NCBI RefSeq assembly: GCF_003336205.1
Contig: NZ_QPIE01000003.1
Span: forward strand, 124,001-188,000
From: Chryseobacterium lacus
Lineage (GTDB): Bacteria; Bacteroidota; Bacteroidia; Flavobacteriales; Weeksellaceae
Direction of reading: 5' to 3'
Length of the DNA: 64,000 nucleotides
Shown here: in pieces, positions 48,797 through 56,602 of the stretch
How positions within the stretch are numbered: position 1 is the first letter of the stretch
Layout of the letters: each line of letters starts with the position of its first letter
The notes under the pieces: generated by a model
Told to the model about the DNA's origin: nothing
Database searches by the model: none
What the model saw: the letters and a program-made list of their open reading frames with translations, nothing else
Program-made: the position numbers and the translations under genes

Positions 48797-49678
48797 TCAC
48801 TGTTTTATTGGCTTGCTCCTCAAAAATATCAATCCGCCAATAATAATCAGTCCGCCGGTAAACTGAATGGCCGTAAGTCTTTCGCCGTCTAAAACGCCCC
48901 AAAGTACCGCAACTATTGGCATTAGCAAAGTAACGGTAGAAGCGAATAATGGACTTGAAATTTTCAAAAGCCGATAGTTCAGCAGCATGGCCAGTCCGGT
49001 TCCGAAGATAGAAAGCAAACTCACATATCCCAATCCTAGAAATTCAGAAGATGTTCCTTTAAATTCACCGAAAAATCCTGTCGATATAAGAGCCAAAAGA
49101 GAAGGCAGAAAAAGGACATAGAAGAACACAAATCCCGATAGCACTTGTGAAGATATGTCATTCAGCTTGGCTTTTACCGTAGTCATACTTATGGCGTAAA
49201 GAAAGGTAGCAATCAACAATAAAAGGATGGGAAAAAACTTGATTCCGGTTTCTCCCTGCGAACCCAACATCAGCAGACACGCACCCGAAAAACTGATGCT
49301 GACTCCCAAGATCTGTCTTCCCGTAGTTGCAGATTTCCAGAATAATCCACCCACAATAATCACGAAAATAGGCATCATGGAATTGATGATTCCTGCAACA
49401 CTGCTGCTGATCTGCGTTTCCGCAATAGGAAAAAGAAACATCGGGATGAAGTTTCCGGAAAAGGCCGCCAAAACCAACCATTTTATTCTTTTTCTCGGGA
49501 ATTTTTTTCTGTGAATAATGGCTAATGGCGAAAGCAACACTCCAGCAATCAGCACGCGCAAAGCTCCTACTTGATAAGGGTCAAAATGTTCCAGTCCTTT
49601 TTTGATCAGAATAAAAGATGAACCCCAGATAAGCGTCAGTACAATAAGCAAAATCCATTTTTCTTTTTCAGGATTCAT
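48797..49678 (-). CDS. EamA/DMT-superfamily transporter
   Basis: A 293-residue membrane protein with ten probable helices arranged as two EamA halves. The N-terminus ILLIVLTLIWGSSFILIKKGL and the segment AGIINSMMPIFVIIVGG are family-typical. Such proteins export metabolites or drugs; the substrate is unknown. It overlaps the aat gene by 4 bp and is the last gene of that leftward pair. Confidence 0.87.
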   Translation of the reverse strand: MNPEKEKWILLIVLTLIWGSSFILIKKGLEHFDPYQVGALRVLIAGVLLSPLAIIHRKKFPRKRIKWLVLAAFSGNFIPMFLFPIAETQISSSVAGIINSMMPIFVIIVGGLFWKSATTGRQILGVSISFSGACLLMLGSQGETGIKFFPILLLLIATFLYAISMTTVKAKLNDISSQVLSGFVFFYVLFLPSLLALISTGFFGEFKGTSSEFLGLGYVSLLSIFGTGLAMLLNYRLLKISSPLFASTVTLLMPIVAVLWGVLDGERLTAIQFTGGLIIIGGLIFLRSKPIKQ

Positions 49679-50319
49679 AGCGTAGATTTGAGATAATATA
49701 AATAATCAATTTTGGAAATCATTCTTGCGCCAAGGCTTTTCAAATGGTCGGTATACACCTGACAGTCAATCAGGCTCAGTTCGTGCTGATGTTCTGACAC
49801 AAAATAGATAAATCCCGCTTTGGAAGCATTGCTCACTTTTGAAAACATGCTCTCGCCACAGAAAACATCTCCGATTTGCAGCCCGTAAAATCCACCAACC
49901 AATTCGTCATTCTGCCACACTTCTACGCTTTTCGCAATTCCTTTGTTGTGCAATTGGACAAAAGTTTCGATCAGCTCATCAGAAATCCAGGTATCATTTT
50001 GATCTTTTCGATTGGTATTTTTGCATTGTTGCATTACCTCTGCAAAACACCTGTTTTCAGTAAACCGGAAACTATCTCTTGCCATTATTTTCCGCATCGA
50101 TTTGGATATTTTTAATTCATCAGGGAAAAGTACAAACCTCGGATCGGGGCACCACCACAGAATTTTCTCACCTGGATTGTACCAAGGAAAAATGCCATGT
50201 TGATACGCCAAAAGAACGCGATCCACAGATAAGTCGCCGCCCTGCGCAATCAATCCACCTATAGGATGATAGAAAGCAGGATCGGGAAATGAAATCTCAT
50301 CCTTCTGAAGCTGAATCAT
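49675..50319 (-). CDS. aat: Leucyl/phenylalanyl-tRNA-protein transferase
   Basis: A 214-residue Aat enzyme that adds Leu or Phe from aminoacyl-tRNA to proteins with basic N-termini, marking them for ClpAP. The GNAT-like core shows FPWYNPGEKILWWCPDPRF and AGFIYFVSEHQHELSLIDCQ, both diagnostic. Length is standard. Its 3' end overlaps the DMT transporter start by 4 bp; the DUF3127 gene lies upstream beyond a terminator. Confidence 0.93.
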   Translation of the reverse strand: MIQLQKDEISFPDPAFYHPIGGLIAQGGDLSVDRVLLAYQHGIFPWYNPGEKILWWCPDPRFVLFPDELKISKSMRKIMARDSFRFTENRCFAEVMQQCKNTNRKDQNDTWISDELIETFVQLHNKGIAKSVEVWQNDELVGGFYGLQIGDVFCGESMFSKVSNASKAGFIYFVSEHQHELSLIDCQVYTDHLKSLGARMISKIDYLYYLKSTL

Positions 50320-50381: not shown

Positions 50382-50765
50382 TTAAAATGGCAAATCATCA
50401 TCCTCGTCCTCAGAGAATGGGTTTTCATTGCTGGATGAAGCGGAAGGTTGGGAGGATGGTGAGGCTTGGGTAGGCTCTGCATTGCTGTTTTCGTGAACTT
50501 TTTCCAGTCTCCAACCGGTAATGCTGTTAAAATATTTGGTCACACCGTCTGGCGCAGTCCATTCTCTTCCCCGTATATTGATGCCTACTTTCACTTGTTC
50601 GCCCTCTGAAACATTATCAAGAAGATTTATTTTCTCAGAAAGAAACTCGATGCTGATGGGTTGGGGATATTGCTCTTGGGTAAGAAGAATCATTTCCCTT
50701 TTCTGAAATCCACTTGCAAAAGTTTGAGTTTCAAACACTTTCTTTACTGTTCCTTGTAATTCCAT
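50382..50765 (-). CDS. DUF3127 protein with SSB-like acidic C-terminal tip
   Basis: A 127-residue protein. Residues 1-90 are the DUF3127 domain: MELQGTVKKVFETQTFASGF, ISIEFLSEKINLLDN, VKVGINIRGREWT and FNSITGWRLEK, which look like the strands of an OB-fold. After about residue 95 comes a Ser/Pro-rich linker and then SEDEDDDLPF. The terminal DDDLPF is nearly identical to the tip of bacterial SSB, which recruits repair proteins. A second SSB-like, ssDNA- or protein-binding role is inference. It is monocistronic. Confidence 0.85.
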   Translation of the reverse strand: MELQGTVKKVFETQTFASGFQKREMILLTQEQYPQPISIEFLSEKINLLDNVSEGEQVKVGINIRGREWTAPDGVTKYFNSITGWRLEKVHENSNAEPTQASPSSQPSASSSNENPFSEDEDDDLPF

Positions 50766-55015: not shown

Positions 55016-56536
55016 TTAAAGTTTCTGATTTAATTCCAGAAGAGGATCAATATATTCCCTGTCATTGCTGAGTCTCGGAACTTTATTCTGTCCGCCCAAT
55101 TTGCCCCGGGATTCCATCCAGTGATAAAAAAGATTGGGCTTTGCACAATGTACAATCGGTCTTTTTAGGGTCATATTATTGTAACGCTTGGCTTCATAAT
55201 CTGAGTTGATAGATTTCAGACAATTATCAAAAGAATCAACGAAAAGATCAAGATCGGATGGGAATTTATTAAATTCAAAAATCCATTCGTGCGCGCCGCT
55301 TTCATTTCCTTTCATAAAAACCGGAGCTCCTGTAAAATCACCAATACTTGCGTTGCTGGCCTGACACGCTTGTGTAATTGCCGTTTCTACATTCCCGATC
55401 ATCAGTTCTTCGCCGAAAGCATTGATGTAATGCTTAGTTCGTCCTGAGATTTTTATTCTGAAAGGATCCAGGGAAGTAAAGATCACTGTATCGCCTATCA
55501 AATAACGCCACAATCCACCGTTGGTTGTCAGCACAACGGCATAGTTTACACCTTTTTGTACTTCTTCCAGCGGAATCGCATTCGGTTCCGACTTTCCAAA
55601 AGTATCCATCGGAATAAATTCATAGAAAATACCATAATCAAGCATTAACAGCATTTCATCACTGTCGCTTCGGTCCTGTATTCCGAAAAAGCCTTCAGAA
55701 GCATTGTATATTTCGTAATAATTGATGTCTTTTCCAATAACTTCCCGATATTGTTCCCTGTAAGGTTTGAAACTGATCCCGCCGTGAAAAAACACTTCCA
55801 AATGAGGCCAGATTTCCGAAATAGTACCTACACCGGTTTCTTTCAGTACTCTTTGCAACAGTACCATCATCCAGCTCGGAACTCCGGTAAGACTGCCGAC
55901 ATCTTCATTTTTTACTTCTGAAATTATGGCTTGAAGTTTACTTTCCCATTCCGACATCAGCGAAACTTTTCTGCTGGGAACAGTGGTAAGTTCTACCCAA
56001 AAGGGAAGATTGTCAATCAATATTGCTGAAAGATCGCCAAATTTGGTGTTGAATTGTTCATACATTTCTGCACTTCCACCCAAACGGAGGTTTTTGTTGG
56101 AAAAAAGCAGATTATCAGGATGATTGTTGGCGTAAATAGAAATTAAATCTTTACCGGCTTTGAAATGACAATCATTCAGGCTATCGTCTGTAATAGGGAT
56201 GTACTTACTTTTTGCATTCGTCGTTCCTGAGGATTTGGCAAAATGGCGAATTTGTCCGGGCCAGAATACATCTTTTTCGCCTTTCCTCGCTCTTTCTATA
56301 TAAGGTTCAAAATCTTCATACGTTGTGATGGGAACTCTGTTTTTGAAATCCTGATATGAAGAAATGGAGCTGAAGCCATGAATTTTGCCGTATTCTGTGG
56401 TTTCCGCATGAAACAGTTGCGAAAAAAGAATTCCGTTTTGAGTGTTGATCGGCTCATTGATAAAATTCTGAATCTGACTGATCCTTTGCTTAATAAACCA
56501 GTTGACTAAAGAATTAAAAAAGGGTTTGTTCGCCAT
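55016..56536 (-). CDS. GH3-family (auxin-responsive-like) acyl-adenylate enzyme
   Basis: A 506-residue protein of the GH3 family. Visible segments are the ATP/adenylate motif FAKSSGTTNAKSKYIPIT, the YNASEGFFGIQ block and DTVIFTSLDPFRIKISGR. Plant members conjugate amino acids to auxin or jasmonate through an acyl-adenylate; the bacterial substrate is not established. The start is ATG 56536 (MANKPFFNSLVNWF); an in-frame ATG at 56572 would add a hydrophobic 12 residues. Monocistronic, leftward, separated from the bacilliredoxin gene by a terminator. Confidence 0.85.
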   Translation of the reverse strand: MANKPFFNSLVNWFIKQRISQIQNFINEPINTQNGILFSQLFHAETTEYGKIHGFSSISSYQDFKNRVPITTYEDFEPYIERARKGEKDVFWPGQIRHFAKSSGTTNAKSKYIPITDDSLNDCHFKAGKDLISIYANNHPDNLLFSNKNLRLGGSAEMYEQFNTKFGDLSAILIDNLPFWVELTTVPSRKVSLMSEWESKLQAIISEVKNEDVGSLTGVPSWMMVLLQRVLKETGVGTISEIWPHLEVFFHGGISFKPYREQYREVIGKDINYYEIYNASEGFFGIQDRSDSDEMLLMLDYGIFYEFIPMDTFGKSEPNAIPLEEVQKGVNYAVVLTTNGGLWRYLIGDTVIFTSLDPFRIKISGRTKHYINAFGEELMIGNVETAITQACQASNASIGDFTGAPVFMKGNESGAHEWIFEFNKFPSDLDLFVDSFDNCLKSINSDYEAKRYNNMTLKRPIVHCAKPNLFYHWMESRGKLGGQNKVPRLSNDREYIDPLLELNQKL

Positions 56537-56570
56537 CGAAAGCAAAAATAGTAATTCGTTCCAGAAAAAC

Positions 56571-56602
56571 AAAAAAAATTCCGCCCAGACTCTGAACGGA
56601 AT
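56571..56602 (-). terminator. Terminator after the bacilliredoxin gene
   Basis: On the minus strand ATTCCG and CGGAAT pair with a 13-base loop, followed by a run of eight T. Confidence 0.75.

Follow-up and report, generated by a model that had tools for sequence, protein, structure and literature searches.

The window, the whole 64,000-nucleotide stretch of a Chryseobacterium lacus contig that was analysed, carries on its minus strand a gene for a small protein of the family DUF3127, with aat as its downstream neighbour. The features considered here are as follows.

50382..50765, minus strand: DUF3127 gene, an open reading frame with an ATG start and 127 codons plus stop; proposed SSB-like ssDNA-binding hub
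50496..50765, minus strand: OB-fold domain, residues 1–90, from predicted structure and fold comparison
50412..50495, minus strand: flexible Ser/Pro/Asn-rich linker, residues 91–118, from low pLDDT and composition
50385..50411, minus strand: acidic tip, residues 119–127, EDEDDDLPF, from the protein end and homologue conservation
50385–50402, minus strand: core tip DDDLPF
49675..50319, minus strand, downstream of the DUF3127 gene: aat, leucyl/phenylalanyl-tRNA protein transferase (PF03588, E 1.4e-70)

A sequence-only reading of this DNA had assigned the protein to DUF3127 and described a small, possibly OB-like domain, a flexible Ser/Pro linker and an SSB-like DDDLPF end. Profile comparison confirms the family (PF11325; residues 2–88, E 3.6e-27, 94.9 bits against a cut-off of 27), the frame does end in ...SEDEDDDLPF, and linker residues 91–116 comprise 8 S, 4 P and 4 N among 26. 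Three tRNA genes and mutL lie upstream in divergent orientation. The sequence TAnnTTTG is a Bacteroidota promoter motif, and none was seen upstream of the DUF3127 gene. Of 80 homologous loci from named genomes, 70 have aat on the same strand no more than 3.5 kb downstream, which suggests that the chromosomal DUF3127 gene is a settled resident; aat is its conserved neighbour and stands outside its mechanism. Elsewhere in the window (55016–56572, minus strand), this Bacteroidota chromosome encodes a protein of the GH3 family (PF03321, E 1.2e-56), which is known from auxin-conjugating enzymes of plants.

Alignment with 1eqq places the DDDLPF end one conservative residue away from the E. coli SSB tip, DDDIPF, in keeping with the near-identity first proposed. 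Among 317 stop-to-stop frames of at least 60 amino acids in the window, the DUF3127 frame alone ends in [DE]x[LIVMA]PF. The same pattern closes 1 of 1,111 frames of at least 150 amino acids drawn from the 80 homologous loci and the window with DUF3127 excluded, and that single background frame is a true SSB (L178; PF00436, E 2.5e-29). The occurrence of the tip on DUF3127 is far above chance. Whole-genome searches with the OB domain alone yielded a broad, non-random set of 104 chromosomal homologues (the window's copy, the top 30 by score from the phylum sample, the window's relatives, 40 picks from lower in the list and 5 from the family), in which all 104 proteins end in PF and 93 match the stricter pattern [DEN]x[LIVMA]PF. 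The 80 named-genome loci, ranked by full-length match in a way that favours tails, end in DDLPF in 79 cases and in DGLPF in one. Conservation of the tail across homologues, on which the sequence-only reading had made its proposal depend, is therefore found in both sets. One homologue (L105) is frame-broken by an internal TGA and was used for its C-terminus alone. The Bacteroidetes endosymbiont of Geopemphigus sp. (L174) likewise retains DUF3127 and the tip.

Predicted fold and probable kinship with SSB

A template-free AlphaFold2 model built on 94 homologues has a pLDDT of about 96 over residues 1–90 and 57–64 beyond them. Strands at residues 2–10, 21–29 and 36–42, a helix at 43–51 and strands at 57–70 and 76–89 give this predicted model the strand-strand-strand-helix-strand-strand order of an OB topology. 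In a Foldseek comparison of the model with the PDB the best 50 matches are all SSBs (E 8e-7 to 2.3e-5), VIA aligns 90 residues with the Salinibacter ruber SSB (Z 12.2, rmsd 2.4), and among viral predicted structures the top named matches are a DUF3127 protein followed by phage SSBs. Structure prediction, set against the alternative of an unrelated fold, thus returns an OB fold for the small domain, and the low pLDDT of the linker (57–61) together with its Ser/Pro/Asn-rich composition agrees with the flexibility ascribed to it. Six residues, F20, Y33, W69, Y78, F79 and W85, occupy columns that are 94–100% aromatic in alignments of 94 and 43 sequences, and a weak alignment pairs W69 with the tryptophan in the RTRKW motif from E. 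coli. The stacking residues reported for E. coli SSB are W40, W54, F60 and W88 (PMC3991886), and we infer their mapping onto the DUF3127 positions.

PriB (Z up to 11.9) and other OB proteins match the model as well, so the fold alone is no proof of ssDNA binding. Because OB folds bind many kinds of ligand and PriB also stands high in the fold comparison, the protein could be imagined to bind RNA or protein instead of ssDNA, with a tip that acts as a decoy and titrates SSB partners. We regard such a function as highly improbable, in view of the six near-universal aromatic positions, the exclusive presence of SSBs among the best 50 Foldseek matches and the window's genome, in which no other tipped SSB was found. 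Two further identities were rejected. PriB resembles the DUF3127 protein in having an OB fold related to SSB but is by description an OB fold only, whereas 37 residues of linker and tip follow the OB domain here and end in DDDLPF. Matches to IF3_C (PF00707, E 0.047; TIGR00168, E 0.16) fall far below the cut-offs.

Sequence lends moderate support to a shared descent of DUF3127 and SSB, and structure lends stronger support. The PF00436 profile of canonical SSB gives no match to the DUF3127 protein at E up to 1, a point against the SSB reading, and the protein is accordingly not filed as a canonical SSB. It does match the canonical SSB family PHROG 44 at E 2.3e-9 with the tail included in the match, and in the converse search a canonical SSB matches PHROG 4932, a phage family of single-strand DNA-binding proteins, at E 4.8e-4. 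With tails removed, a 43-sequence DUF3127 profile scores 34.3 against Bacteroidota SSBs, where 200 column shuffles reach no more than 21.6, and a 17-sequence profile scores 27.0 against 22.2 for shuffles; a deeper, noisier 94-sequence alignment reaches 20.0 against a shuffle maximum of 19.6, which is chance level and counts against kinship. Searching PDB sequences with the protein returned only tail and short SSB matches (E 0.59 and 0.86), and a search of the PDB with the 94-sequence profile found no relative, a further point against. The two proteins share an OB fold, a disordered linker and a DDLPF or DDIPF tip, with about 90 residues aligned in the predicted model. They differ in belonging to separate Pfam and PHROG families and in the DUF3127 domain, which spans about 90 residues and has, between strands 2 and 3, a loop with about 10 residues fewer than that of SSB, again a point against.

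The closest annotated relatives are in phages. PHROG 4932 matches residues 1–127 over profile positions 1–117 of 117 (E 3.4e-37), which makes its members, like the RefSeq phage SSBs, full-length homologues of the DUF3127 protein with the tip included, although their annotation is apparently computational. The 127 matching RefSeq phage records are named single strand DNA binding protein, and the GenBank originals are mostly named hypothetical protein. In Pantoea phage AAS23, gp25 is reported to be an SSB and to have domain hits to both PRK09010 and DUF3127 (PMC8004638). The SSB likeness of DUF3127 is thus already implied by phage annotation, and the earlier description of the family as one of unknown function only is not wholly accurate, given the names in PHROG 4932 and the RefSeq phage records.

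DUF3127 and canonical SSBs across Bacteroidota

Of 296 genomes sampled across the phylum, 171 carry DUF3127; within the window's class the figure is 72 of 73, with one exception (G292). Named homologues at 61–81% identity come from Chryseobacterium, Cloacibacterium, Riemerella, Kaistella and Epilithonimonas, and point to Weeksellaceae as the window's family. Every Weeksellaceae genome with completeness of 90% or more and contamination of 5% or less carries the gene (187/187), as do 195 of the 197 Weeksellaceae genomes overall, the two misses being 80% and 56% complete. One genome in which neither DUF3127 nor SSB was found (G136) is a point against this pattern. A Winogradskyella metagenome-assembled genome (L178, 8001–8375 and 11834–12298) places its DUF3127 gene about 3.5 kb from a tipped canonical SSB.

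The canonical SSB of the window's genome is reduced. This genome is 99.96% complete and has a single PF00436 match, a 109-amino-acid protein that ends in ...EEVVLLGSK and lacks both linker and tip; no relic of a lost tip, as a frameshift would leave, was seen right after its stop. In 22 Weeksellaceae genomes with exactly one PF00436 match and an SSB gene that was read, 20 of the SSBs are tipless, 16 stopping at the OB domain and 4 carrying a short motif-free extension, and the remaining two (G297 and G387) have a tip. A tipped SSB persists in some genera of the family, in many cases next to a tipless one. Outside Weeksellaceae, Bacteroidota genomes taken from the better-scoring rows of the SSB search, with one SSB considered per genome, have a tipped SSB in 20 of 20 cases without DUF3127 and in 20 of 20 with it. 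In these samples, a sole detected SSB without a tip is seen where DUF3127 is universal.

Several Weeksellaceae SSBs (L062, L349, L361 and L423–L426) have a short linker and a degenerate end such as MDLDD, HSEF, SEEI or QHDF, as if their tips were decaying. In the window's genome, a gene for a 149-amino-acid lone-HRDC protein (L012, contig C27, 1835–2281; PF00570, E 2.3e-19) comes after the gene for the tipless SSB; the HRDC protein could be linked to recombination helicases.

In other members of the family no canonical SSB was detected. The PF00436 profile matches in 181 of the 187 good Weeksellaceae genomes and finds nothing in six. When these were searched again with a Bacteroidota SSB alignment, four (G298, G310, G311 and G337) yielded the DUF3127 gene or genes and nothing else; a fifth (G385) yielded DUF3127 together with a weak match to part of a 2,227-codon frame. 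The sixth, G313, was excluded, since it encodes a divergent SSB of prophage type that passes the Pfam cut-off and carries a DDDLPF tip of its own; that this SSB at first escaped detection shows that a genome search can miss SSBs, and the resulting count of five good genomes without an SSB other than DUF3127 rests on two profile searches. Two further genomes of the same order, G320 and G323, the latter a single contig, have DUF3127 and no SSB otherwise detected. RecO and PriA are each present in 9 of 9 genomes, a set made up of these genomes and the window's own.

The co-occurrence of a tipless SSB and a tipped DUF3127 protein in the same genomes, both of SSB-type OB fold (for DUF3127 by prediction), would also fit a loosely RPA-like hetero-oligomer, dimeric or tetrameric, whose tip comes from DUF3127. 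We consider a heteromer of this kind unlikely: DUF3127 occurs in the five good Weeksellaceae genomes without another SSB found, and many genomes pair it with a fully tipped SSB, so that a tipless partner is not needed.

Proposed role, precedents and phage copies

We consider it likely that the DUF3127 protein is a compact SSB, coating ssDNA and using its tip to recruit partners, and that in Weeksellaceae it serves as the main, sometimes the only, tip-bearing SSB. Judging by fold and conservation, the OB domain would coat ssDNA through the conserved aromatic set while the disordered linker tethers the DDLPF tip, and the identity of the tip and the retention of partners suggest that PriA, RecO and similar proteins of replication and repair dock onto it. 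PriA binds the SSB tip in E. coli, and RecO is reported to do so. Interaction of the acidic tip of E. coli SSB with partner proteins has been described (PMC7145534). In most DUF3127-bearing Bacteroidota genomes the protein would form a second hub beside a tipped canonical SSB. In Weeksellaceae, since the canonical SSB is usually tipless or undetectable, DUF3127 is instead probably the main and at times sole carrier of the tip. The term second hub, used in the sequence-only reading, therefore suits genomes in which a tipped canonical SSB coexists and understates the case in the window's genome, where the one SSB found is tipless.

An arrangement of this type is described in Anabaena. Its two annotated SSBs consist of the OB domain alone and have no tip, and the 'hypothetical' protein All4779, with linker and tip, was shown experimentally to be the major SSB (PMC3976300). 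The published description matches the Weeksellaceae pattern of OB-only annotated SSBs and a tipped 'hypothetical' protein, and differs in that All4779 is a 182-amino-acid cyanobacterial protein described as weakly homologous to SSBs (PMC3976300). The Anabaena case is a direct precedent for a DUF3127 hub. In Weeksellaceae, DUF3127 is probably the housekeeping hub. According to the same source, B. subtilis also pairs a tipped with a tipless ssDNA-binding protein, SsbA and SsbB, and the tipless SsbB has a role in competence (PMC3976300), and this points to a possible function for the tipless SSB of Weeksellaceae. By that account both B. subtilis proteins are canonical SSBs, whereas in Weeksellaceae the tipped one is DUF3127. 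We see an even balance for and against the stronger proposal that the canonical SSB has been displaced in this family, with DUF3127 as the essential housekeeping hub and the PF00436 protein as a tipless accessory that is absent in some lineages. If displacement is true, DUF3127 would represent a general second SSB system of Bacteroidia, the class being assigned by inference.

SSB is viewed as a single protein, universal and essential in bacteria, with a tip that organizes genome maintenance; in Weeksellaceae, including Chryseobacterium and Riemerella, this tip has seemingly moved onto a protein of 'unknown function'. Such a move would affect the choice of gene for work on replication and repair in these bacteria, the site of action of SSB-tip inhibitors and the annotation of SSB genes. 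Weeksellaceae also provide a natural experiment on whether a canonical SSB has to carry the tip. In open-access journal papers we found neither the DUF3127 family described as a chromosomal SSB nor Bacteroidota described as lacking SSB, and no mention of PF11325; DUF3127 is named in a single paper there, the one on phage AAS23. Nor did we find in these papers that chromosomal DUF3127 is near-universal in the class, that its tip is invariant or that it substitutes for the canonical SSB tip in Weeksellaceae.

Phage copies could be taken to point to a narrower function. In Nonlabens phage P12024L, DUF3127 comes after genes for a YqaJ exonuclease and an ERF annealing protein, and two genes separate it from a primase; a RecT-like gene lies close to DUF3127 in Cellulophaga phage phi18:3, and a NinG gene lies near it in Tenacibaculum phage Gundel_1. 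With such neighbours, and with canonical SSB retained in most Weeksellaceae, DUF3127 might be a phage-derived SSB for recombination only, leaving replication to a tipless SSB whose partners are recruited in some other way. We find this improbable: in Weeksellaceae DUF3127 is commoner than SSB (187/187 against 181/187), its chromosomal gene typically adjoins aat, and in the B. subtilis comparison the special competence role belongs to the tipless SsbB (PMC3976300). A general SSB hub remains our preferred reading of the chromosomal protein.

The tip is less constant in phages, which can lose it, whereas chromosomal DUF3127 is found lineage-wide beside aat. On phage contigs, 123 of 153 complete DUF3127 copies end in PF and 30 do not, which suggests that some versions function without the tip. 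Phages also appear at times to keep the OB domain only, as 24 of the 153 copies are at most 97 amino acids long. These short proteins (L250, L253, L254, L256, L259, L267 and others) end at the OB domain, 16 of the 24 lack a PF end, and they are possibly versions that avoid host partners.
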